A stretch of 64,000 nucleotides of DNA from Ignavibacteria bacterium (GTDB taxonomy: Bacteria; Bacteroidota; Ignavibacteria; Ignavibacteriales; Melioribacteraceae). The stretch lies in assembly GCA_016873835.1 (NCBI GenBank), contig VGVY01000001.1, positions 1 through 64,000 of the forward strand, written 5' to 3'. Below the pieces are notes generated by a model. That model did not search any database, was not told the DNA's origin, and saw only the letters and a program-made list of their open reading frames with translations. This document shows, piece after piece, positions 7,465 through 20,548 of the stretch (positions are counted from its first letter, which is position 1; each line of letters begins with the position of its first letter). Position numbers and translations under genes: made by a program.

Positions 7465-9003
7465 ATGTTTTCCAAAGTTTATTCTGCTTCAACATTGGGA
7501 ATTGATGCTTATTTAGTTGAAGTTGAAACTCACACCGAAAAGCAACTCCCGTTAATTACAATTGTTGGTTTACCAGATAACGCAGTGAAGGAAAGCAAAG
7601 AAAGAGTTACTGCAGCTTTAAAAAATTCTGGTTTTGAAATTCCACTTAAGAAAATTACCGTTAACCTTGCACCGGCAGATATTAAGAAAGAAGGAAGTGC
7701 ATTTGATCTCCCAATTGCAATTGGAATTTTAGCTGCTAGTGATTTATTTGAATTAAATGAACTTGATAAATCTTTATTGCTTGGCGAACTATCATTAGAT
7801 GGTTCATTAAGAAAAATTAAAGGGGCACTTCCAATAACTGTTGAAGCAAGAAAATTAGGTTTCACTAAAATAATTCTCCCGGAAGAATCAGTTAAAGAAG
7901 CATCCATTGTTGAAGGGATAAGTGTTTTTGGTTTATCGCACATAAAAGAAGTTATTGAATTATTAGACGGAACTAATCACTTTCAACCGACATTCACAGA
8001 TAAGAATGAAGTTTTTGCTCAAGTAAATACTTATGCTTTAGATTTTTCTGACGTAAAAGGACAAGAAAATGTAAAAAGAGCTTTAGAAATTGCTGCCGCT
8101 GGCGGTCATAATATTTTGATGATTGGACCACCCGGTTCGGGTAAAACTATGCTTGCAAAAAGACTGCCTTCAATCCTTCCACCATTAACTTTTGATGAAG
8201 CACTTGCGACAACTAAAATTCATTCTGTTGCCGGGATATTATCAAAAGAAAAAGCACTCATTACAGAAAGACCATTTCGCAACCCGCACCACACAGTTTC
8301 CGATGCAGCATTAATTGGAGGAGGTAGTGTCCCTCGTCCCGGAGAAGTTTCTTTTGCTCATCATGGAGTTTTATTTTTGGATGAGTTGCCTGAGTTTAAA
8401 AAAAATGTTCTTGAAGTTTTACGCCAGCCATTAGAAGATTGCAAAGTAACAGTCAGCAGATCTAAAATGTCTTTAGAGTTTCCGGCAAATTTTATGTTAG
8501 CTGCTGCAATGAATCCTTGTCCATGCGGATATTTTACTGATCCAACTAAAGACTGCACATGCAACACTTCACAAATTCAAAAATATATGTCAAGAATTTC
8601 TGGTCCTTTGCTTGATAGAATTGACATTCATATCGAAGTGCCGGCGGTTAAGTTTAAAGAACTTTCTTCAAGCGCACAAGGTGAAAAATCTGAATCAATA
8701 AGAGCTAGAGTTGTAAAAGCAAGAGAGATGCAGATAAGTCGCTTCAAAGGAATGAAAAATATTTTCTGCAATTCAGATATGGCAACAAAAGAAATAAGAA
8801 ATTTTTGTAAGCTTGATTCTGCTTCAGAAGAATTATTAAAAATGGCAATGACACGGCTCGGCTTATCAGCACGTGCTTATGATAGAATAATTAAAGTGAG
8901 CAGAACAATTGCAGACTTAGAGCGATCCAACAATATTTTACCGCAGCACATCAGTGAAGCAATTCAATATAGAAGTCTCGACCGAGACATCTGGGGCCAT
9001 TAA
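7465..9003 (+). CDS. YifB/ComM family Mg-chelatase-like AAA+ ATPase
   Basis: The 512-aa protein has the three-part YifB layout. An N-terminal ChlI-like domain holds GLPDNAVKESKERV at about residues 35-48. A central AAA+ domain has Walker A GPPGSGKT (221-228) and Walker B LFLDELPEF (303-311). A C-terminal Mg-chelatase domain contains the NPCPCGYF cysteine motif. In proteobacteria the homologue ComM is a hexameric helicase that promotes branch migration during natural transformation; that role is known for the family but not shown here. ATG 7465 follows the nuo terminator by about 65 nt, so it probably has its own promoter, which I could not identify with confidence. Confidence 0.88.
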   Translation: MFSKVYSASTLGIDAYLVEVETHTEKQLPLITIVGLPDNAVKESKERVTAALKNSGFEIPLKKITVNLAPADIKKEGSAFDLPIAIGILAASDLFELNELDKSLLLGELSLDGSLRKIKGALPITVEARKLGFTKIILPEESVKEASIVEGISVFGLSHIKEVIELLDGTNHFQPTFTDKNEVFAQVNTYALDFSDVKGQENVKRALEIAAAGGHNILMIGPPGSGKTMLAKRLPSILPPLTFDEALATTKIHSVAGILSKEKALITERPFRNPHHTVSDAALIGGGSVPRPGEVSFAHHGVLFLDELPEFKKNVLEVLRQPLEDCKVTVSRSKMSLEFPANFMLAAAMNPCPCGYFTDPTKDCTCNTSQIQKYMSRISGPLLDRIDIHIEVPAVKFKELSSSAQGEKSESIRARVVKAREMQISRFKGMKNIFCNSDMATKEIRNFCKLDSASEELLKMAMTRLGLSARAYDRIIKVSRTIADLERSNNILPQHISEAIQYRSLDRDIWGH

Positions 9004-9030: not shown

Positions 9031-9059
9031 TTGACAAATGGAATTTCACTATTTATATT
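9031..9059 (+). promoter_or_regulatory. Promoter of the ilv-leu-cimA operon
   Basis: A perfect TTGACA (9031-9036) and TATATT (9054-9059) are separated by exactly 17 nt. The predicted start is near 9066. This gives a leader of about 290 nt before ilvD that contains the Ile/Leu/Val leader peptide and the attenuator hairpins. Confidence 0.8.
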
Positions 9060-9144
9060 CACCCCTAAATTTTCACTAATGATTAACTCACAACAAAATA
9101 GCGCTCAAAAAAATTTGATGGCTAAAATCACCAAAGGGAATGTT

Positions 9145-9249
9145 GTGAGCATTTATTCAATAAATTTCATTTCTTCAGAAACAATTCTACTAGGGATTAT
9201 TATTCTTTTAGCTCTACTAGTGGTAAATATTATTGCCATTATTAGCTAA
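9145..9249 (+). CDS. ilv operon leader peptide (Ile/Leu/Val-rich)
   Basis: A short ORF between the promoter and ilvD encodes a peptide whose last 21 residues before the stop contain 8 Ile, 6 Leu and 2 Val (16 of 21), in runs such as ILLGIIILLALLVV. Translation of this stretch would stall when branched-chain aminoacyl-tRNAs are scarce. GTG 9145 is preferred because AAAGGGA (9133-9139) lies 5 nt upstream, giving 34 aa; ATG 9118 (43 aa) and ATG 9079 are in the same frame and cannot be excluded. The peptide has no expected function beyond being translated. The alternative, a real small membrane protein, is less likely given the flanking hairpins. Confidence 0.75.
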   Translation: MSIYSINFISSETILLGIIILLALLVVNIIAIIS

Positions 9250-9349
9250 AATAATAGGTCAATCCCAATATCTTACATAATAACATAAAATAATAAAAGT
9301 CAGATTGAGGGGTTGACAGAACCCTAAATTGATTCTGAAGATTTTTTTT
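9193..9349 (+). promoter_or_regulatory. Transcription attenuator of the ilv-leu-cimA operon
   Basis: Four segments can pair in the classical alternating way. Segment 1 is GGGATT (9193-9198) inside the leader peptide codons. Segment 2 is GTCAATCCC (9258-9266), just after the leader stop codon. Segment 3 is GGGGTTGAC (9309-9317). Segment 4 is AACCCT (9320-9325). Pairing 1:2 is 6 bp. Pairing 2:3 is 9 bp with one G-U (antiterminator). Pairing 3:4 is 6 bp. Pairing 3:4 is extended outward by TCAGA (9300-9304) with TCTGA (9334-9338), forming a terminator stem followed by eight T (9342-9349). Stalling within the leader codons would hide segment 1, favour 2:3 and permit read-through into ilvD. Confidence 0.75.
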
Positions 9350-9359
9350 GGAGGAAATC

Positions 9360-11039
9360 TTGAGATCTGATTTAATCAAAAAAGGGTTTGAAAAAGCTCC
9401 ACACAGAAGTTTATTGAAAGCAACCGGAGTCATCAAAAGTGACGAGGATTTCAACAAACCCTTTATTGGTATTTGTAATTCATATATAGATTTGATTCCC
9501 GGTCACGTTCATCTGCAAGAATTTGGTAAACTAATTAAAGATGCTGTTAGAGAAGCTGGTGGTGTTCCTTTTGAATTCAATACAATTGGTGTTGATGATG
9601 GAATTGCAATGGGTCATCTTGGAATGCGCTATTCACTTGCAAGCAGAGAATTAATCGCAGATTCGGTTGAGACAGTTGTTGAAGCACATCGTCTTGATGG
9701 AATGATATGCATTCCAAATTGTGATAAGATTGTTCCGGGTATGATGATGGGCGCGGCACGTGTTGATATCCCAACAATTTTTATTTCCGGCGGACCAATG
9801 AAAGCGGGCCGATTACCAAGTGGTGAAAAAGTTGATCTAATTTCTGTATTTGAAGGAGTTGGGAAATATTCAAGCGGTATTATTGGTGATACTGAATTAA
9901 AACAACTTGAAAATTTTGGTTGCCCAACTTGTGGTTCGTGTGCTGGAATGTTTACTGCAAACTCAATGAATTGTTTGCTTGAAGCATTAGGATTAGCATT
10001 GCCCGGCAATGGTACAATTTTAGCAGTTGATCCAAAAAGAAAAGAACTTGCAATTTCTGCTGCTAAACAAATTTTGAAGTTAGTACAAGATGAGTTAAAA
10101 CCAAGTAAAATTTTAAACTATAACTCATTCAAAAATGCTTTCACACTCGATCTTGCGATGGGAGGAAGCACAAATACAATTTTGCATACACTTGCTGTTG
10201 CTCATGAAGCTGGTATTGAGCTTGATTTAGAAATGTTAAATGAGCTTGCAGAAATTGTTCCTTACTTGTGTAAAGTTAGCCCGGCAACAAAAGAAGTCCA
10301 TATTGAAGATGTTGATGAAGCCGGCGGGATTTCTGCAATTCTAAAAGAACTGACCAAGAAAAACTTGATAGAAAAAAATTGTATGACGGTTACCGGAAAT
10401 ACATTAGGTGAAAATATTTCTTCAGCAAGAAATTTAAACGAAAATGTTATTAGAACAATTGATAATCCATTCTCACAAAAAGGAGGATTAGCTGTTCTGT
10501 TTGGAAATCTTGCACCCGATGGTGCAATTGTAAAAACCGGAGCTGTTGATGAAAAAATGTTTAAATTTTCTGGACCAGCAAAAATTTATGAATCACAAGA
10601 AGAAGCAGTTGAAAAAATTCTTAAAGGTGATCTTAATGCTGGTGATGTTGTTGTGATTCGTTATGAAGGACCAAAGGGTGGACCGGGGATGCCTGAAATG
10701 TTAACTCCAACTAGTGCAATAATGGGAATGGGATTAGGAGATAAAGTTGCATTAATAACAGATGGAAGATTTTCAGGAGGTACAAGGGGTGCGTGTATTG
10801 GTCACGTATCGCCAGAAGCAGCAGAACGTGGTCCTATTGCAGCTCTAAAAAATGGTGATGTTATTGAAATAGATATACTTGAACGAAAACTAAATATAAA
10901 ACTTTCGGATGAAGAGATTTCTAGCAGAATAAAATCACTGCAAAAGTTCGAACCAAAAATAAAGCGTGGTTATTTAGCTCGTTATTCACAGCTTGTAACC
11001 TCAGCTAATAGAGGAGCAGTTTTAACTAACAGATTTTAA
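9360..11039 (+). CDS. ilvD: Dihydroxy-acid dehydratase
   Basis: This enzyme dehydrates 2,3-dihydroxy-isovalerate and 2,3-dihydroxy-3-methylvalerate to the keto acids that precede valine/leucine and isoleucine. The 559-aa protein has the conserved iron-sulfur cysteines in [23 protein letters not shown] and [17 protein letters not shown], plus the C-terminal [12 protein letters not shown] and [10 protein letters not shown] motifs. The start is TTG 9360, 5 nt after GGAGG (9350-9354). The longer frame from 9348 would place the start upstream of this ribosome site and inside the attenuator U-tract. It is the first structural gene of the operon and ends 8 nt before ilvB. Confidence 0.95.
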
Positions 11040-11047
11040 GGAGGAAT

Positions 11048-12763
11048 ATGGAAAAGGATAGTCAAGTGTTGAGTGGTGCAGACATATTTTTTGAATGCTT
11101 AAAAAGAGAAAAAGTTGAATACATTTTCGGTTATCCTGGGGGAGCCGTTTTAAAATTATATGAACATCTTTATGATGTCGATTTTTTAAAACACATTCTT
11201 GTTCGCCACGAACAAGGAGCCGTTCACATGGCTGAAGGTTATGCCAAAGCTTCTGGAAAAGTTGGGGTAGTTCTAGTTACATCTGGTCCTGGGGCTACTA
11301 ACACTGTAACGGGAATTGCGGATGCATATATGGACTCTGTACCAATAGTCGTGTTTACGGGACAAGTACCTTCTCACCTAATTGGTAATGATGCTTTCCA
11401 AGAAGCTGATATCGTTGGAATTACAAGACCAATTACAAAACACAATTTTCTTGTTCGAAATATTAATGAACTTGCTTTGACAATAAGAAAAGCATTTTTT
11501 ATTGCAGCAACTGGAAGACCTGGTCCAGTCGTAGTTGATCTACCAAAGGATGTAATTAATTCGAAAACAAAGTTTGAATATCCAGTTGATGTAGATCTTC
11601 GTGGATATAAACCAATATATAAAGGTCACACAAATCAAATTAAAAAAGCAGCAGAAATAATTTCAAAATCTAAAAGACCTTTACTTTATGTCGGCGGCGG
11701 AGTTATTATGTCTGGCGGCACAAATGAACTTGCATTATTAGCAAGAGAAAATAAATTTCCAGTCACCATGACGCTTCAAGGATTAGGTGCTTTTCCCGGA
11801 ACGGATGATTTATCGTTAGGAATGTTAGGAATGCATGGAACATATTGGGCAAATCAAGCTGTTAACAACTGTGATCTTTTGATTTCTTTAGGTGCAAGAT
11901 TTGATGATAGAGTAACCGGAAGGCTTGATACTTTTGCAACAAAGGCATTTAAAATTCATGTAGACATTGATCCAACTTGTATTGATAAAAATGTAATAGT
12001 TGATTTGCCAATTGTTGGAGATGTAAAACACATAATGGCAGAAATTGCAGCCGAATTAAATTCACCGCCCGACACTAATGAATGGCTGGCACAAATAAAA
12101 GAATGGAAAAAAGAATGTCCAATGCACTACGATAATGATGGAAGATTAAGAACTGAATTTGTAATCGAAAAAATTTCTGAGAAGACAAAAGGTAATGCGG
12201 TAGTGGTAACTGATGTTGGACAACATCAAATGTGGACTGCTCAATATTTTAAATACAATTATCCGCGTTCAAATATTACAAGCGGTGGTTTAGGAACAAT
12301 GGGATTTTCAGTCCCAGCGGCAATTGGTGCGTCTTTCGCCGTACAAGATAGACCAATCATTTCCATAAGCGGCGATGGCGGTTTCCAAATGAATATGCAA
12401 GAACTAATTACTGCCAGTTATAATAAAGTTCCGGTTAAGTTTTTCATTATCAATAATAGTTTTTTAGGAATGGTAAGACAGTGGCAAGAACTTTTTCATG
12501 CCGAGAAATACAGTTTTACAGACCTAAGAGCAAGTAATCCGGATTTTATGAAAGTTGGTGAAGCTTTTAATATTGAATCGTATTCAACTGAAAATCCAAA
12601 CGAAGTTGATTCCTTATTAGACAAAGCTTTTTCCATTAATGACCGTCCAGTCTTAATTGAGTTTAAGGTAGTAAAAGAAGATATGGTATTTCCTATGGTC
12701 CCATCCGGAGGTTCAATTTCTGATATGATAGTTAAAAGATTAAATCCAAAGAGGATGACATAA
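11048..12763 (+). CDS. ilvB: Acetolactate synthase large (catalytic) subunit
   Basis: This TPP- and FAD-dependent enzyme condenses two pyruvates to acetolactate, or pyruvate with 2-ketobutyrate to acetohydroxybutyrate. The 571-aa protein shows the catalytic glutamate in RHEQGAVHMAEGYA (E55) and the TPP-binding GDGGF...INN motif in the C-terminal third. ATG 11048 is preceded by AAGGAGGA. Its stop overlaps the start of ilvN by one base (TAATG), indicating translational coupling with the regulatory subunit. Confidence 0.95.
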   Translation: MEKDSQVLSGADIFFECLKREKVEYIFGYPGGAVLKLYEHLYDVDFLKHILVRHEQGAVHMAEGYAKASGKVGVVLVTSGPGATNTVTGIADAYMDSVPIVVFTGQVPSHLIGNDAFQEADIVGITRPITKHNFLVRNINELALTIRKAFFIAATGRPGPVVVDLPKDVINSKTKFEYPVDVDLRGYKPIYKGHTNQIKKAAEIISKSKRPLLYVGGGVIMSGGTNELALLARENKFPVTMTLQGLGAFPGTDDLSLGMLGMHGTYWANQAVNNCDLLISLGARFDDRVTGRLDTFATKAFKIHVDIDPTCIDKNVIVDLPIVGDVKHIMAEIAAELNSPPDTNEWLAQIKEWKKECPMHYDNDGRLRTEFVIEKISEKTKGNAVVVTDVGQHQMWTAQYFKYNYPRSNITSGGLGTMGFSVPAAIGASFAVQDRPIISISGDGGFQMNMQELITASYNKVPVKFFIINNSFLGMVRQWQELFHAEKYSFTDLRASNPDFMKVGEAFNIESYSTENPNEVDSLLDKAFSINDRPVLIEFKVVKEDMVFPMVPSGGSISDMIVKRLNPKRMT

Positions 12764-13272
12764 TGAAACATACAATTTCAATTTTAGTCGAAAATCATTT
12801 TGGTGCCTTCGATAGAGTTGCTACTATGTTCAGTGGTAAAGGATTTAACATTAGAAGTATTTCGATTGGTGAAACAGAAATTGAAGAGATTTCCAGAATG
12901 ACAATTGTAACTGAAGGTGATGATCAAATAATTGATCAAGTAGTAAAACAATTAAACCGGCTTATCGATACAATTAAAGTTGTTGATCTATCAGATGTAC
13001 CTCGCATTGAACGTGAGCTAGCCTTGATCAAGGTAACTATGAACAAAGGCTCGATGGAAGAAATAAAAAACATTAACGACATTTTTCGCGGAAACATCGT
13101 AGATATTACAAACAAAACCATGACATTAGAAATTACTGGTCCGCCGGATAAAGTTGATGCTGCAATAAATGTTCTTTCACCCTTCGGAATAAAGGAGCTT
13201 GCAAGAAGTGGTGTTGTAGCGATTAAAAGAGGTGAGCAATCAAAAATTGTAAAAAAACAAAATCTATCATAA
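12763..13272 (+). CDS. ilvN: Acetolactate synthase small (regulatory) subunit
   Basis: The 169-aa protein begins with an ACT domain (TISILVENHFGAFDRVATMF...GFNIRSISIG), which in the family binds valine and mediates feedback inhibition of the large subunit. The C-terminal half matches the conserved small-subunit activation domain. The length is usual for the longer IlvN/IlvH type (about 160-175 aa). The ATG start overlaps the ilvB stop by one base, and ilvC follows after 18 nt. Confidence 0.95.
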   Translation: MKHTISILVENHFGAFDRVATMFSGKGFNIRSISIGETEIEEISRMTIVTEGDDQIIDQVVKQLNRLIDTIKVVDLSDVPRIERELALIKVTMNKGSMEEIKNINDIFRGNIVDITNKTMTLEITGPPDKVDAAINVLSPFGIKELARSGVVAIKRGEQSKIVKKQNLS

Positions 13273-13290
13273 ACATACTGAGGCACTAAA

Positions 13291-14280
13291 ATGAAAGTTT
13301 ATTACGATGATGATTCAAATCTAGAATTACTCAAAGGAAAAAATGTTGTTGTGCTTGGATTTGGCAGCCAAGGACACGCGCACGCTCTCAATTTAAAAGA
13401 GAGTGGCGTTAATGTTTGCGTTGGACTTCGAAAGGAATCTGCTAATTGGAAAAATGCAGAGTCTGCTGGACTTGAAGTCAAAACAGTTTCTGAAGCAGTC
13501 AAATGGGGAAATGTTATAATGATTCTGCTTCCCGATCAAAATCAAAAATCAGTTTATGAAAATGAGATAAACCCAAATTTAAAAGAAGGCGATACGCTTG
13601 CATTTGGTCATGGTTTTAATATTCATTACAAACAAATTGTTCCCCCTTCAAATGTTAACGTAATGATGATTGCGCCTAAAAGTCCGGGACATTTAGTACG
13701 CAGAACATTTCAACAAGGTAGCGGAACCCCATGTCTTATTGCAGTCTATCAAAATCCAAGCGGCAATACAAAAGAATTAGCTTTGGCTTGGGCAAAAGGA
13801 ATAGGTGGAACAAGAGCTGGCGTTATTGAAACTAATTTTAAAGATGAAACTGAAACCGATTTGTTTGGCGAACAAGCAGTTCTTTGCGGGGGTTCAGCTC
13901 AATTAATTAAAGCTGGATTTGAAACTTTAGTTGATGCCGGTTATCCGCCAGAACTTGCTTATTTTGAATGCATGCATGAAATGAAATTAATTGTGGATCT
14001 CTATTATGAAGGTGGATTATCCAGAATGAATTATTCTGTAAGTGATACTGCGGAATATGGAGGCATGACTCGCGGTTCAAGAATTATTACAGAGGAAACT
14101 AAAAAAGAAATGAAAAAAATTCTTAAAGAAGTTCAAGATGGAAGTTTTGCAATGGAATGGTTAAACGAATATAACAGCGGACAAAAACAAATGAATAAAC
14201 TGAGAAAAGAAAATAAGGAGCATCCTATTGAAACTATTGGTTCTAAACTGCGCGAAATGATGAGTTGGTTAAAAAAATAA
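13291..14280 (+). CDS. ilvC: Ketol-acid reductoisomerase (class I, NADPH type)
   Basis: This enzyme isomerises and reduces acetolactate or acetohydroxybutyrate to the dihydroxy acids used by IlvD. The 329-aa class I protein has the Rossmann motif GFGSQG (23-28). The cofactor loop GLRKESANW has Arg47 and Ser50, consistent with NADPH preference. The C-terminal metal-binding region has [14 protein letters not shown] and [15 protein letters not shown] 13291 is preceded by CTGAGG. It lies between ilvN and leuB. Confidence 0.95.
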
Positions 14281-14320
14281 TTTTGAAAGTATTAAAAGCT
14301 GTCTCATAAATGGAGTAACA

Positions 14321-15415
14321 ATGTATAAAATTGTTTTGTTGCCTGGTGATGGAATAGGAAATGAAGTAACAGCATCTGCTGTGGAAATAATAAAAACAGT
14401 TTCTAAATATTTTAATGTAGAGATACAACTTGAAGAACATTTAATTGGAGGTTCTTCTTATGATAAATATGGCACTCCAATAACTGATGAAACTTTATCT
14501 GCTTGTTATAATTCCGATGCTGTTTTTCTTGGGGCAGTTGGAGGTTTTAAATGGGATAATCTTCCTCATCAATTAAAACCAGAAGCAGCATTATTGAAAC
14601 TTAGAAAAGCGTTAGGATTATTTGCAAATATCCGTCCAGCTAAAATTTATAGGCCTCTTCTCGATTCTTCAACACTAAAAAAAGAAGTTTTAGAAAACGT
14701 TGATTTTATAGTACTGAGAGAACTGACAAGCGGAATTTATTTTGGTGAACCAAGAATGTTTGATGATATGCATGGTCTTAACACAATGATATATCATAAA
14801 GAAGAAGTTGAACGGATTGCAAAAATAGCATTCAAAATTGCAAGAGAAAGAAATAAAAAAGTTACTTCTGTTGATAAAGCTAACGTACTTGAAGTTTCTC
14901 AGTTTTGGCGGAATGTTGTTCATCAAGTACATAAAGAATTTGAAGATGTTCAATTAAGTGATATGTACGTTGATAATGCAGCAATGCAAATTGTCCGTAA
15001 TCCAAAACAGTTTGATGTAATTCTAACTTCAAATTTATTTGGAGATATTTTAAGTGACATTGCTGGAATGATAACCGGAAGTTTGGGAATGCTTCCTTCG
15101 GCAAGTTTAGGGACAAAATATTCATTGTACGAACCAGTTCACGGCAGTGCACCTGACATAGCCGGACAAAATAAAGCCAATCCATTGGCAGCAATTGCTT
15201 CTGTTGCAATGATGTTCGATTATTCATTCGGATTAAAGAGTGCAGCTAATTTAATTAACGAAGCAATTTCAAAAAGTCTTGAAGAAAATTTTCGTACAAC
15301 TGACATTTATTCAAAAGGTTGTCAACTCGTTTCAACAAATGAAATGACGAAATCAGTAATTGAAAAATTCGAAGAACTATTTCATTCTCAAGCAATTGGG
15401 GTCTTTACACTTTAA
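14321..15415 (+). CDS. leuB: 3-Isopropylmalate dehydrogenase
   Basis: The 364-aa beta-decarboxylating dehydrogenase oxidises 3-isopropylmalate to 2-ketoisocaproate in leucine synthesis. With CimA present, it should also convert erythro-3-methylmalate to 2-ketobutyrate. Visible motifs are GDGIGNEV near the N-terminus, LRELTSGIYFGEPR, NLFGDILSD for metal binding, and EPVHGSAPDIAGQNKANP for NAD binding. ATG 14321 is preceded by TGGAG. It sits 40 nt after ilvC and 24 nt before leuA. Confidence 0.95.
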   Translation: MYKIVLLPGDGIGNEVTASAVEIIKTVSKYFNVEIQLEEHLIGGSSYDKYGTPITDETLSACYNSDAVFLGAVGGFKWDNLPHQLKPEAALLKLRKALGLFANIRPAKIYRPLLDSSTLKKEVLENVDFIVLRELTSGIYFGEPRMFDDMHGLNTMIYHKEEVERIAKIAFKIARERNKKVTSVDKANVLEVSQFWRNVVHQVHKEFEDVQLSDMYVDNAAMQIVRNPKQFDVILTSNLFGDILSDIAGMITGSLGMLPSASLGTKYSLYEPVHGSAPDIAGQNKANPLAAIASVAMMFDYSFGLKSAANLINEAISKSLEENFRTTDIYSKGCQLVSTNEMTKSVIEKFEELFHSQAIGVFTL

Positions 15416-15439
15416 TTATTTAATTTTTTTGAGGTAACA

Positions 15440-17023
15440 ATGAGAGAAAAAATAATAATTTTTGATACAACTTTAAGAGATGGTGAACAGTCTCCGGGTG
15501 CATCATTATCTGTACATGATAAAGTTGAAATTGCTCGTCAACTATCAAGATTAAATGTTGATGTAATTGAAGCTGGTTTTCCAGTTTCATCACCAACACA
15601 ATTTGAAGCTGTCAAAAGAATTTCAGATGAATCTGATAAAATAATTGCCGGTCTTTGTCGTGCAAAAGAAATAGATATTAAAACAGCTTATGATGCTCTT
15701 CGAAATGCAAAGCATCCAAGAATACATACATTTTCAAGTACTTCAGATATTCATGTTTTAGGAAAATTTAGTGATAGTAAATATGGTATTTCTCTAAAAG
15801 AAAAAAAGTCAACAGTTTTAAAAATGTCAGTTGATGCAGTTGCATTTGCAAAAACATTTACAAGCGACATTGAATTTTCTGCTGAAGATGCCGGTAGAAC
15901 AGATATTGGATATCTCTGTGAGATTATTGAAGCAGTAATCGAAGCCGGAGCTACTACTATCAACATCCCAGATACAACTGGATATACATTTCCACATGAG
16001 CTTGGAAATAAATTTTATGAAATAAAAAATAGAGTTAAAAATATTAATAAAATTATCTTAAGTGCTCACTGCCATAATGATTTGGGTTTAGCGGTTGCTA
16101 ATTCAATTTCAGCAATTAATAATGGAGCGCGGCAAATTGAATGCACAATCAATGGAATTGGAGAAAGAGCCGGCAATGCTTCCTTAGAAGAATTAGTGAT
16201 GGCATTAAAGGTCAGAAAGGAAATAAATAATTATTACACAGATATAAATACTACTGAAATTTATAATACAAGCAGAATGGTTTCTAGTTACACTGGTATA
16301 ATAGTTCAGCCGAACAAAGCAATAGTTGGTGATAATGCATTTGCACACGAGAGTGGTATTCATCAAGATGGTGTTCTAAAAGATAAATCAACTTATGAAA
16401 TAATGACTCCAGAATCGATTGGAGTTCCAAAAAGTAAAATCATTTTAGGAAGACATTCTGGAAGACACGGATTAAAATCAAGATTGAAAGAGCTTGGATA
16501 TCATCCATCTGAAGAAGAGATGCAAAATGTTTATGAATCATTTCTTGATCTTGCCGATAAAAAGAAAGAAGTTTTTGATGATGATCTCAGAATGCTGATG
16601 GGTGACGAAGAAATAACTCACTCTGCTTATTATAAAATTGATTACCTCAATGTTATTTCTGGAAATGCTGCAATTCCAACTGCTACTGTAAGAATAAAAT
16701 CTCCTGAAAATGTTTTCGAAGAATCATCTACTGGCGATGGTCCAGTTGACGCCCTATTCAATGCTATTGACAGAGCTTTAAATATTAAGCCGACTGTTGA
16801 ATCTTATTCAGTTAGATCAGTAACTTCTGGCAGACAAGCACTTGGTGAAGTAAATCTTCGTCTAAAATTTGGAAATAAATATTTAGGAGGAAGAGGTTTA
16901 TCAACAGATATTATTGAAGCGAGCTGCAAAGCTTACTTGCAAGCAATTAATCATGATGTTTTTTTAAAAATGGAGAATCAATTTGATTATGAGTACGAGA
17001 ATCAGATAAGGTTTAGAGGGTAA
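15440..17023 (+). CDS. leuA: 2-Isopropylmalate synthase
   Basis: This enzyme condenses acetyl-CoA with 2-ketoisovalerate, the first committed step of leucine synthesis. The 527-aa protein has the HMGL-like TIM barrel with DTTLRDGEQSPGAS at residues 9-22 and the metal-binding HCHNDLGLAVANS segment. It then has the ESGIHQDG and GRHSGRHGL linker motifs and a C-terminal LeuA dimer domain expected to bind leucine as feedback inhibitor. ATG 15440 follows TTGAGGTAAC. The paralogous cimA at 18956 shares the barrel but differs in the substrate loop (DGTQGEA), which supports assigning this copy to leucine. Confidence 0.93.
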   Translation: MREKIIIFDTTLRDGEQSPGASLSVHDKVEIARQLSRLNVDVIEAGFPVSSPTQFEAVKRISDESDKIIAGLCRAKEIDIKTAYDALRNAKHPRIHTFSSTSDIHVLGKFSDSKYGISLKEKKSTVLKMSVDAVAFAKTFTSDIEFSAEDAGRTDIGYLCEIIEAVIEAGATTINIPDTTGYTFPHELGNKFYEIKNRVKNINKIILSAHCHNDLGLAVANSISAINNGARQIECTINGIGERAGNASLEELVMALKVRKEINNYYTDINTTEIYNTSRMVSSYTGIIVQPNKAIVGDNAFAHESGIHQDGVLKDKSTYEIMTPESIGVPKSKIILGRHSGRHGLKSRLKELGYHPSEEEMQNVYESFLDLADKKKEVFDDDLRMLMGDEEITHSAYYKIDYLNVISGNAAIPTATVRIKSPENVFEESSTGDGPVDALFNAIDRALNIKPTVESYSVRSVTSGRQALGEVNLRLKFGNKYLGGRGLSTDIIEASCKAYLQAINHDVFLKMENQFDYEYENQIRFRG

Positions 17024-17024
17024 A

Positions 17025-18320
17025 ATGGGAATGACTATTACAGAAAAAATTTTTGCAAAAGCTTCAGGTAAAAAAATTTTGCAGCCTGGGGAAAATGTTT
17101 GGCTTAATGTTGATGTATTAATGACGCACGATGTTTGCGGTCCTCCAACAATTAACATTTGGAAAAATGAATTTGGGGTAAATGCAAAAATTTGGGATAA
17201 AAATAAATTAGTAATTTTCCCAGATCATTACATCTTTACTAATAATCCTCACGCAAATAGAAATGTAGATTTGCTTCGACAATTTTCGGCAGAACAAAAC
17301 CTACCCAACTATTTTGATGTTGGAACAGAAAAGTATAAAGGTGTTTGCCATATCGCATTAGCTGAAGAAGGATTTAACATTCCTGGTACAGTTTTATTCG
17401 GAACTGATTCACATACATGTACAAGCGGTGCTTTCGGAATGTTTGCTACTGGAGTTGGTAACACAGATGCAGCATTCATTTTAGGTACTGGTAAAATTTG
17501 GGAAAAAGTTCCAGAATCTATGAAGTTTTCTTTTCATGGTGAAATGCCCGAGTACTTAACAGCTAAAGATTTAATTCTGCATATACTTGGTGATATCACT
17601 ACAGATGGTGCAACATACCGTGCAATGGAATTTGATGGTGAAGCAATTGAAAAAATGAATATGAATGAAAGAATGAGTCTTACAAATATGGCAATTGAAG
17701 CTGGTGGAATGAATGGCATAATTTCAGTTGATGATGTGACAAAAAATTACCTCGCTGAGATTGGCATTAAAGAATATGATGAATTTTACAGTGATGCTGA
17801 TTCAAAATACTTTTCTATATATGAATATTATGTATCATCAATTGAACCAACAGTAGCAAAACCTCATAGCCCTGATAATCGAGACACAGTTCGAAACGTA
17901 GAAGGAACCAAACTTACAAAATGTTATATCGGTTCTTGCACCGGCGGAAAAATAACTGACTTTCAGAATACAGCAAAAATATTAGTTGGTCAGAAAGTTA
18001 AAGTTCCAACCTTTATTGTTCCAGCTAGCACTCAAGTGGCTGCAAAACTTTCTGAAGAAACCATAAATGGAATTTCATTAAAAGAAATTTTTTTGAATGC
18101 CGGCTGCATAATTGCAGAATCTTCATGTGCTGCTTGTCTTGGTGGTCCTTCAGATACAATTGGAAGAAGTACAGATGGAGATGTAGTAATTTCTACAACG
18201 AACAGAAATTTTCCGGGCAGAATGGGAAGTAAAACATCGGAAATTTATTTGTCTTCTCCTTTAACGGTTGCTGCAAGTGCTATAAGTGGAGTAATAACTG
18301 ATCCGAGGAAATTTTTATAA
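17025..18320 (+). CDS. leuC: 3-Isopropylmalate dehydratase large subunit
   Basis: This aconitase-family subunit carries the 4Fe-4S cluster that isomerises 2- to 3-isopropylmalate. Together with CimA in the same operon, it would also isomerise citramalate. The 431-aa length fits the shorter LeuC type. Cluster ligands are visible at C305 (YIGSCTGG), C368 and C371 (SSCAACLGGPSD), and GTDSHTC lies at 126-132. ATG 17025, one base after the leuA stop, has AGAGGG 4 nt upstream; ATG 17031 is a possible alternative. A 64-nt spacer separates it from leuD. Confidence 0.94.
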   Translation: MGMTITEKIFAKASGKKILQPGENVWLNVDVLMTHDVCGPPTINIWKNEFGVNAKIWDKNKLVIFPDHYIFTNNPHANRNVDLLRQFSAEQNLPNYFDVGTEKYKGVCHIALAEEGFNIPGTVLFGTDSHTCTSGAFGMFATGVGNTDAAFILGTGKIWEKVPESMKFSFHGEMPEYLTAKDLILHILGDITTDGATYRAMEFDGEAIEKMNMNERMSLTNMAIEAGGMNGIISVDDVTKNYLAEIGIKEYDEFYSDADSKYFSIYEYYVSSIEPTVAKPHSPDNRDTVRNVEGTKLTKCYIGSCTGGKITDFQNTAKILVGQKVKVPTFIVPASTQVAAKLSEETINGISLKEIFLNAGCIIAESSCAACLGGPSDTIGRSTDGDVVISTTNRNFPGRMGSKTSEIYLSSPLTVAASAISGVITDPRKFL

Positions 18321-18384
18321 TTAAAAAGGTAAAAATTAAGCTCAAACTAACTTAAAAATGATATTTTAAAAAGAGCAGAGAAGA

Positions 18385-18942
18385 ATGGCAAATATAATTG
18401 TTGGGAAAGCATTTGTTCTTGGAGATAATATTGATACTGATCAAATTATTCCCGCTGAACATCTGGTATACAGCACGAGTAATCCAAGTGAATTAAAAAT
18501 GTATGGGAAGTTTTCTCTTTCTGGAGTACCAATAGAAAAATCTGGATTACCCAATGGGAGCTGTAAATTTATTGAAGGTGAAGAACTAACTTCAGGATAT
18601 TCAATAGTTATTGGAGGGAAAAATTTTGGATGCGGTTCTTCCAGAGAACATGCTCCACTTTCACTTCATGTTGCCGGAGTTAAAATAATTGTAGCAGAAT
18701 CTTATGCAAGAATTTTTTATAGAAATTCTGTTGACGGCGGTTTTATAATTCCTATTGAATCTATTGAAAAATTAAATGATAAAATTTCAACTGGTGATGA
18801 AATTGAGATTGATTTGGGAAAAAACAATTTGACTGTAATGACAACCGGAAAAACTTACAATTTAAAACCACTTGGCAGTGTAATCGAAATTGTTAGAAGC
18901 GGCGGACTTTTTAACTATGCAAGAAAAAAGAAAATGATTTGA
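18385..18942 (+). CDS. leuD: 3-Isopropylmalate dehydratase small subunit
   Basis: This 185-aa swivelling domain partners LeuC. It has the family motifs GDNIDTDQIIPAEHL at about 13-27, GKNFGCGSSREHAP around 73-86, and the IVAESYARIFYRNS segment. The length is normal for the small-subunit type paired with short LeuC. The ATG is preceded by GCAGAGAAGA. The 64-nt gap to leuC contains a GGTAAAAATT stretch resembling the ribosome-site motif seen elsewhere, but no ORF follows it. Confidence 0.94.
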   Translation: MANIIVGKAFVLGDNIDTDQIIPAEHLVYSTSNPSELKMYGKFSLSGVPIEKSGLPNGSCKFIEGEELTSGYSIVIGGKNFGCGSSREHAPLSLHVAGVKIIVAESYARIFYRNSVDGGFIIPIESIEKLNDKISTGDEIEIDLGKNNLTVMTTGKTYNLKPLGSVIEIVRSGGLFNYARKKKMI

Positions 18943-18955
18943 GAAGGACATTATA

Positions 18956-20548
18956 ATGAGTTCAAGAACAATAGAATTATTTGATACAACACTTCGTGAC
19001 GGAACACAAGGCGAAGCAATAACTCTTACAGTTCGTGATAAACTTTCGATAGCTCAAAAGTTAGATGAATTTGGTATTGATATTATTGAAGGAGGATGGC
19101 CTGGCAGTAATCCTCGCGACGAAGAATTTTTTAAAGAAGCAAAAAAAATAAAACTATCACATTCTGAATTATGTGCTTTTAGTTCTACTGCAAGATTTCC
19201 AGATAAAATTTCATCAGACTCAAATATTAATGCACTTTTATTTGCTGAAACTCCAATGGTTTCTATTTTTGGCAAGACCTGGAAATTTCATGCAGAGTTT
19301 GGACTTGGTCTTTCTGAAGATGAAAATGAAGAATTGATTTTTAATTCGGTTAAGTTTTTGGTTGAAAGAGGAAGAAGAGTTGTATTTGATGCCGAACATT
19401 TTTTTGATGGATATAAGGACAACAGAAATTTTGCAATGAAAATGCTTAAAGCTGCAGAAAGTGGCGGCGCATCAGTTATTACATTATGCGACACAAATGG
19501 AGGGACTTTATCTTCGCAAATAAAAAGTGTTGTTCAGGATGTTTTAGAAAATATTTCAAGCCCCATTGGAATTCATACTCATAATGATAGCGAACTTGCT
19601 GTTGCCAATTCATTAATTGCGATTGAAACTGGGGCAAGTCATGTTCAAGGAACAATAAATGGTGTGGGAGAAAGATGCGGTAATGCAAACCTAATTAGTA
19701 TCATTCCAAATCTATTGTTAAAGATGGGGTATTCAACAAAGCGAAAAATTCAACTTGAGCATCTAACTTCTTTGTCAAATTTTGTTTTTGAATTAATGAA
19801 TCTTGCACCAAATACTCGCGCTGCATTTGTTGGTAAATCAGCTTTTGCTCATAAAGGAGGAATTCATGTAAGTGCTGTTTTGAAAGACAGCAGAATGTAT
19901 GAACATTTAAACCCAAGTTTAGTTGGAAATATTCAACGTGTGCTTGTATCAGATTTATCAGGTCAGAGTAATATCAAATATAAAGCTAAGGAATTTGGAA
20001 TCGATGTTTCTGACAACACAGAGTTCAGTAAAAAATTAGTCAGTCATATTAAAAATCTTGAATATAATGGATATCAGTTTGATGGTGCTGAAGCTTCATT
20101 CGAATTGATTCTTCATTCAGAAAAAAATGATTTTAGTCCTTTCTTTAACACAATTGATTCAAAAGTGAATGTCACATTTGATGATCAAAAACAATCTAAT
20201 GCAGAAGCAGTTATTAAGATTGAAGTTAATGGAGAAATTGAACACACTGTTGCAAATGGAAATGGACCGGTAAATGCATTAGATAATGCACTTAGAAAAG
20301 CACTTGTGAGGTTTTATCCAGAAGTGTCAATAATTAAACTTGTTGATTATAAAGTACGAGTTCTTGATGAAAAAGATGGTACGGCGGCTAAGGTACGAGT
20401 TCTAATTGAATCAAGTGATGGAGAATCAATTTGGTCTACTGTTGGGGTATCTGAAAATATTATTGAAGCAAGCTGGCAAGCATTATGTGATAGCATAAAT
20501 TATAAGCTTTTCAAAATTCAGAAAAACAAAATTCTCAAAGTAAATTAA
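18956..20548 (+). CDS. cimA: (R)-Citramalate synthase
   Basis: This enzyme condenses pyruvate and acetyl-CoA to citramalate, the entry to threonine-independent isoleucine synthesis. The 530-aa protein is a second LeuA-like synthase with DTTLRDGTQGEAI at about residues 9-21, the IIEGGWPGSNPRDEEFF substrate region typical of CimA, HTHNDSELAVAN, AFAHKGGIHVSA and a C-terminal LeuA-dimer domain. Asn-Pro and Gly-Trp in the substrate loop separate it from leucine-type LeuA. It closes the ilv-leu operon, so LeuCD/LeuB made from the same mRNA can act on its product; no ilvA is present in the window. ATG 18956 follows GAGAAGGA. Confidence 0.93.
   Translation: MSSRTIELFDTTLRDGTQGEAITLTVRDKLSIAQKLDEFGIDIIEGGWPGSNPRDEEFFKEAKKIKLSHSELCAFSSTARFPDKISSDSNINALLFAETPMVSIFGKTWKFHAEFGLGLSEDENEELIFNSVKFLVERGRRVVFDAEHFFDGYKDNRNFAMKMLKAAESGGASVITLCDTNGGTLSSQIKSVVQDVLENISSPIGIHTHNDSELAVANSLIAIETGASHVQGTINGVGERCGNANLISIIPNLLLKMGYSTKRKIQLEHLTSLSNFVFELMNLAPNTRAAFVGKSAFAHKGGIHVSAVLKDSRMYEHLNPSLVGNIQRVLVSDLSGQSNIKYKAKEFGIDVSDNTEFSKKLVSHIKNLEYNGYQFDGAEASFELILHSEKNDFSPFFNTIDSKVNVTFDDQKQSNAEAVIKIEVNGEIEHTVANGNGPVNALDNALRKALVRFYPEVSIIKLVDYKVRVLDEKDGTAAKVRVLIESSDGESIWSTVGVSENIIEASWQALCDSINYKLFKIQKNKILKVN

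Follow-up and report, generated by a model that had tools for sequence, protein, structure and literature searches.

A probable ribosome-mediated attenuator in front of the ilvDBNC-leuBACD operon of an Ignavibacteria bacterium

The leader reading frame and its operon

In the window, a stretch of 64,000 nucleotides of contig VGVY01000001.1 from an Ignavibacteria bacterium, a short reading frame rich in isoleucine, leucine and valine codons lies directly before genes for the synthesis of these amino acids. This raises the question whether translation of the frame controls the operon, and by which RNA structures. We conclude with a probability of about 0.85 that the element is a ribosome-mediated attenuator of the ilvDBNC-leuBACD operon, and it very probably responds to all three branched-chain amino acids.

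The first gene of the operon is ilvD (9360-11039, plus strand; TIGR00110, E = 4e-251), which has a TTG start codon and the sequence GGAGG at 9350-9354. It is followed on the same strand by ilvB, ilvN, ilvC, leuB, leuA, leuC and a leuD-like frame (11048-18942), all with NCBIfam matches except the leuD-like frame (18385-18942, plus strand), the translation of which was read by eye. The products of the operon are exactly isoleucine, leucine and valine, the amino acids of the leader codons. At the end of the operon, an open reading frame (18956-20548) resembles citramalate synthase by eye, suggesting that isoleucine is made via citramalate. The gene upstream of the leader is yifB, ending at 9003. 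When sister attenuators were sought in the same genome (G000), the trpE (PF04715) and hisG (PF01634) families had no match in the whole genome and only a homoserine dehydrogenase was found. The source organism is probably a tryptophan and histidine auxotroph that has retained the synthesis of branched-chain amino acids.

Direct reading of the plus strand at 9184-9249 gave ATT CTA CTA GGG ATT ATT ATT CTT TTA GCT CTA CTA GTG GTA AAT ATT ATT GCC ATT ATT AGC TAA. As the initial annotation had stated, 16 of the 21 codons in this control run (9184-9246) encode branched-chain residues, namely eight isoleucines (all ATT), six leucines (four CTA, one CTT and one TTA) and two valines. At least 16 such residues per 21 occur in only 5 of the 44,283 stop-free stretches in the six frames of the window. 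Two of these are the leader peptide itself, and the remaining three overlap each other on the minus strand.

For comparison, an IlvD search of relatives provided 45 loci at the level of the order with a readable upstream region, to which a contig named Caldithrix abyssi (L032) was added. Each of the 46 loci has a reading frame of 46 to 59 codons that ends in an Ile/Leu/Val run. A comparative alignment had been proposed as a check of the leader, and in it the Ile/Leu/Val codons are conserved while the N-terminal half drifts. A Gly-Ile in the centre of the run is nearly universal; L004 has tryptophan instead of the glycine and L123 is without the motif. Most of the peptides end in glycine (often GGC TAA), for which slow termination is one guess.

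The start codon was assigned with the same set. GTG 9145-9147 had been preferred earlier, and the ribosome-site-like AAAGGGA 5 nt upstream of it is present, as are ATG 9118 and ATG 9079 in the same frame. The homologue frames, however, are open further upstream up to an ATG, replaced by TTG or GTG in three of them, which is equivalent to ATG 9079 by position and N-terminal sequence, and the N-termini can be aligned as M-K/N-N/D-x-x-x-N-I. Because of this alignment, ATG 9079 is very probably the start of the leader. GTG 9145 was rejected; it more probably forms the second codon in a Val-Val pair that recurs. The leader peptide would then have 56 residues (MINSQQNSAQKNLMAKITKGNVVSIYSINFISSETILLGIIILLALLVVNIIAIIS; 9079-9249, plus strand). 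Upstream, a predicted promoter TTGACA-17-TATATT (9031-9059, plus strand) matches the consensus in 11 of 12 bases, and each of the 46 homologues has TTGAC ahead of its leader start; the distances from TTGAC to the start are understated in several loci, where the script took an in-frame TTG within the promoter as the start. This would leave a 5' untranslated part of just about 10-20 nt, in which the window has no clear Shine-Dalgarno sequence.

The codon choice in the leaders was compared with that in the ilvD genes of the same genomes. CTA makes up 42% of the leucine codons in the leaders versus 5% in ilvD (odds ratio 13.7, p = 1e-61), and none of the 308 leader leucine codons is TTG. The share of ATT among isoleucine codons is 81% versus 58%, and that of GTG among valine codons 34% versus 10%. 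Leucine codons preceding GGN touch the RNA segment 1b described below; among those not before GGN, CTA still accounts for 37%. The bias is consistent with a role of specific tRNAs, as had been suggested from the window. CUA is also the codon used, and predicted to be the best, in the enterobacterial leu attenuators, according to theory and mutation data (PMC1183508). As the favoured sensing codon in both groups, it offers a natural test of whether the charging of isoacceptors dictates the choice of control codons.

RNA helices and their covariation

Five segments on the plus strand could form competing helices. Segment 2 (GGTCAATCCC, 9257-9266) can pair with segment 3 (GGGGTTGAC, 9309-9317; consensus GGGRTTGAC across the homologues) to form a putative antiterminator, helix P2. 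Segment 1a (9172-9186) lies within the leader frame and can pair with segment 4b (9327-9341) to form helix P1. Segment 1b (9193-9198), consisting of the GGG ATT codons, is complementary to the AATCCC of segment 2 (p = 0.037 and 0.013). As an alternative to 1a, 4b can take part in the terminator-like 3:4 hairpin (9300-9338, -11.5 kcal/mol), whose stem is followed after three nucleotides (AGA) by a U-tract of eight T (9342-9349).

The leader stop codon TAA at 9247-9249 is separated by 8 nt from the segment 2 repeat arm GTCAATCCC, which starts at 9258, in agreement with the spacing given before. In all 46 homologues the gap is 4-10 nt (the stop codon's first base is 7-13 nt ahead of segment 2), and the loop between segments 2 and 3 measures 25-58 nt. 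Since the distance is fixed, a ribosome at the stop codon would cover part of segment 2.

In the alignment of the 46 sequences, the helices 2:3 and 1a:4b together had standard pairs in 81.5% of the cells, and both partners differed in 109 cells. Their joint score was matched by none of 500 shuffles, and after sliding by one column, the pairing fell to 45-48%. For 1b:2, 84% of the cells were paired and the covariation score was matched by 1 of 500 shuffles. Permuting leaders against tails gave z = 7.3, with none of 20,000 permutations as high. Because relatedness inflates shuffle tests, we also used a tree-based null, where one side of each pair was simulated on the IlvD tree with 37 members. 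Helix 2:3 had 9.0 double canonical changes versus 1.1 expected (p < 0.001), 1a:4b had 10.0 versus 4.0 (p = 0.005) and 1b:2 had 2.0 versus 0.3 (p = 0.037). An earlier and cruder version for 1a:4b, which scored the raw overlap of changes on the same branch without the canonical-pair condition, had given p = 0.08. Comparison of the sequences shows the reading frame, its codon bias, the fixed position of the stop codon, 2:3, 1a:4b and, more weakly, 1b:2. On this basis helix 2:3 is firm, the long-range helix 1a:4b well supported and 1b:2 moderately supported, whereas the place of the 3:4 hairpin in this mutually exclusive set is a prediction from folding. Segment 2, which had been proposed from the window, is genuine and forms one arm of a conserved helix. 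We also considered the 4b box (TATATCTG after TTGAC) as an internal promoter and rejected it, since the TTGAC of segment 3 changes to TTAAC or TCGAC in step with its segment 2 partner.

These data bear on two other explanations of the locus. The reading frame might encode a small functional membrane protein or a hydrophobic toxin, the RNA structures being incidental, and its 21 C-terminal residues are indeed hydrophobic enough for a transmembrane helix. The hydrophobic part, however, varies freely in length and residues, and its codons track their RNA partners even through nonsynonymous changes (GGG/GGA with segment 2, TCA/TTA with 4b). The synonymous codon bias is extreme, and the frame stands before ilvD, ilvB or leuB in different genomes. 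NCBIfam had no family match for the leader peptide, and Pfam returned only two non-significant leader-peptide matches (E = 0.28 and 0.31). A protein is therefore a highly improbable explanation. Only slightly less improbable is an RNA- or DNA-binding protein that recognises the inverted repeat GTCAATCCC/GGGATTGAC and leaves the leader frame a secondary role, as has been proposed for the actinobacterial LEU element. The unusually good conservation of the repeat, even in distant classes, would fit such a protein. But the arms change together (GTTAATCCC/GGGGTTAAC, GTCGATCCC/GGGGTCGAC and GGTCAACCCC/GGGGTTGACC), which indicates that the pairing is kept and not the sequence, the loop between them is variable in length, and recognition by a protein leaves the codon bias and the fixed stop distance unexplained.

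Ribosome position and the output of the element

The dependence of the attenuator structures on the ribosome was analysed by equilibrium folding with a masked ribosome footprint. In the window, a ribosome at the stop codon gave probabilities of 0.03 for 2:3 and 0.73 for 3:4, and a ribosome stalled at Leu-Gly-Ile gave 0.98 and 0.00. In the ribosome-free fold, 2:3 was at 1.00. The means over the 46 leaders for 2:3 and 3:4 were 0.15 and 0.37 at the stop, 0.85 and 0.06 when stalled, and 0.82 and 0.09 without a ribosome. As the mask necessarily overlaps with part of segment 2, the loss of 2:3 at the stop codon is partly imposed, whereas the rise of 3:4 is not. The folding suggests that the position of the ribosome selects the structure as the attenuator model demands. 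Classical attenuator models expect termination without translation, and the ribosome-free equilibrium fold here favours 2:3 and 1a:4b, that is, read-through. The order of co-transcriptional folding might alter this preference.

In the mechanism that we propose, the RNA polymerase would start about 10 nt upstream of ATG 9079, and a ribosome would begin the leader of 56 codons. When charged tRNA for isoleucine, leucine (especially the reader of CUA) or valine is short, the ribosome would stall within 9184-9246 and cover 1b. Segment 2 would then pair with segment 3 and block the 3:4 hairpin. A ribosome that has passed 1a would leave it free to pair with 4b as well, locking away the 3' arm of the terminator, and with 2:3 formed the polymerase would read on into the operon. 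With plentiful amino acids, the ribosome would reach the stop codon and cover the 5' half of segment 2, allowing the 3:4 hairpin to form and transcription to end in the U-tract. Of these steps we infer the stalling, the termination and the role of 1a:4b. The regulatory leader of the initial annotation, with a segment 2 that a stalled ribosome frees and a terminating one covers, is thus well supported by the alignment, the stop distance, the covariation and the codon bias, with a different start codon.

Termination of transcription is the likely output in this species, since the window has the hairpin followed by eight U. The start of the U-tract 3 nt after the stem is not ideal for a terminator, and a strict terminator scan did not report the 3:4 hairpin with its U-tract. 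Termination does not seem to be a conserved output, because a stretch of 8 bases with 6 T or more near 4b is present in only 18 of the 46 homologues.

The same sensor could instead act on the translation of the first gene, by an RNA switch that exposes or hides the ribosome-binding site, or on Rho-dependent termination. The 28 homologues without a good U-tract would fit such an output. In a single genus of GC-rich members of the phylum (L147-L151, before ilvB, with the same 2:3 core), CTTCACAGG after segment 2 is complementary to the Shine-Dalgarno region CCTGTGAGG of ilvB in the five genomes inspected, one of which has a single deviating base. Several members of the order have TCTGAA in 4b and TTCAGAGG at the Shine-Dalgarno site, where the own-versus-cross comparison gave z = 3.2; relatedness is uncontrolled in this value and may be the source of the signal, and we did not retain the 4b:Shine-Dalgarno pairing. 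Against a translational output stand the hairpin and U8 of the window and, in the masked folding of the 46 leaders, a Shine-Dalgarno exposure that is independent of the ribosome state (mean 0.29 in both). Sequestration was rejected as a general output on account of this equal accessibility. We consider control of translation or Rho-dependent termination unlikely here, and the output of the attenuator may differ between lineages.

Riboswitches also exchange outputs under a conserved sensor. As a tentative extension of the attenuator model, with somewhat less than even odds, 1a, at the beginning of the control run, would act as a second lock. It would pair with 4b across a distance of about 140 nt, and arms 1 and 3 would thereby be competitors for arms 2 and 4. 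The arrangement and its 2:3 core would be older than the divergence of several Bacteroidota classes and Calditrichota. Under this conserved sensor, the lineages would have exchanged terminator and translation control.

Distribution and relation to known attenuators

A covariance model of the element matched in 28 of 395 genomes of the phylum. We inspected the sites in genomes from outside the order and the one in G005, and named the adjacent genes by eye from the translations. These sites precede ilvB, ilvD or leuB: ilvB in G412, G416, G448, G454, G527, G545 and G601, ilvD in G678, where the arms are GGTCAACCCC/GGGGTTGACC, and leuB instead of ilvD in G005 (L173, G005:C12:97100-97205), a member of the window's own family. 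Two weak matches on the opposite strand are the same palindromic sites. In the window, Rfam had no match except tRNAs, and the T-box covariance model had none at the gathering threshold or in a permissive scan. No report on these bacteria came up in the literature searches; Lopatovskaya 2010, the likeliest overlapping comparative study, was outside their coverage.

The usual view of leader-peptide attenuators is that they evolve quickly and can be recognised only in close relatives. The attenuator here is traceable by covariation across an order and by the covariance model into other classes, before ilvD, ilvB and leuB. This provides about 50 natural variants to ask which parts are essential, such as the U-tract, the long-range helix, the CUA codons and the position of the stop. 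Its leader peptide is longer than the enterobacterial ones. With the enterobacterial ilvGMEDA, ilvBN and leu attenuators it shares a short Ile/Leu/Val-rich frame before branched-chain amino acid genes, the competing helices 1:2, 2:3 and 3:4 and the use of CUA (PMC1183508), and it differs from them by the extra helix 1a:4b, by the many homologues without a U-tract and by having no Rfam, Pfam or NCBIfam leader-family match. The leucine-rich attenuator peptide of staphylococcal ilvD is likewise encoded by an Ile/Leu leader frame directly before ilvD of an ilv-leu operon, and its terminator/antiterminator model has genetic support (PMC5794164). Compared by description, that peptide has 26 residues and the proposed antiterminator keeps the terminator stem intact and pairs with the U tail (PMC5794164). 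In the actinobacterial LEU element upstream of leuA, leader codons also pair over a long distance with the region next to the first gene, the run of leucine codons contacting the Shine-Dalgarno box at the base of a pseudoknot (PMC1262725). Here, in contrast, 1a lies upstream of most control codons, pairs with the 3' arm of the terminator and is nested with 2:3. The Bacteroid-trp motif (RF01692, PMC2864571), compared by name and listing, is also a candidate cis-regulatory RNA in Bacteroidetes, before trp genes by its name and thus unlike the element here. The present element is new in two respects, namely the long-range helix that covariation supports and a deeply conserved sensor whose terminator is unevenly present.

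Other leaders were seen during the search. In three loci of a further family of the class, no such leader was seen. In another family of the class, eight loci (L129-L136), also before ilvD, have an Ile/Leu/Val leader ending in LILSLLLVLSLIIVG and the stop codon. Their inverted repeat GCCAGAGG/CCTCTGGC is unrelated and they lack a U-tract; this is the same logic in a different RNA. On contigs of candidate division CSSED10-310 and of Desulfobacterota (L045, L096, L098, L103 and L108), short frames rich in isoleucine, leucine and valine are followed by inverted repeats before ilvD and are possibly further independent attenuators.
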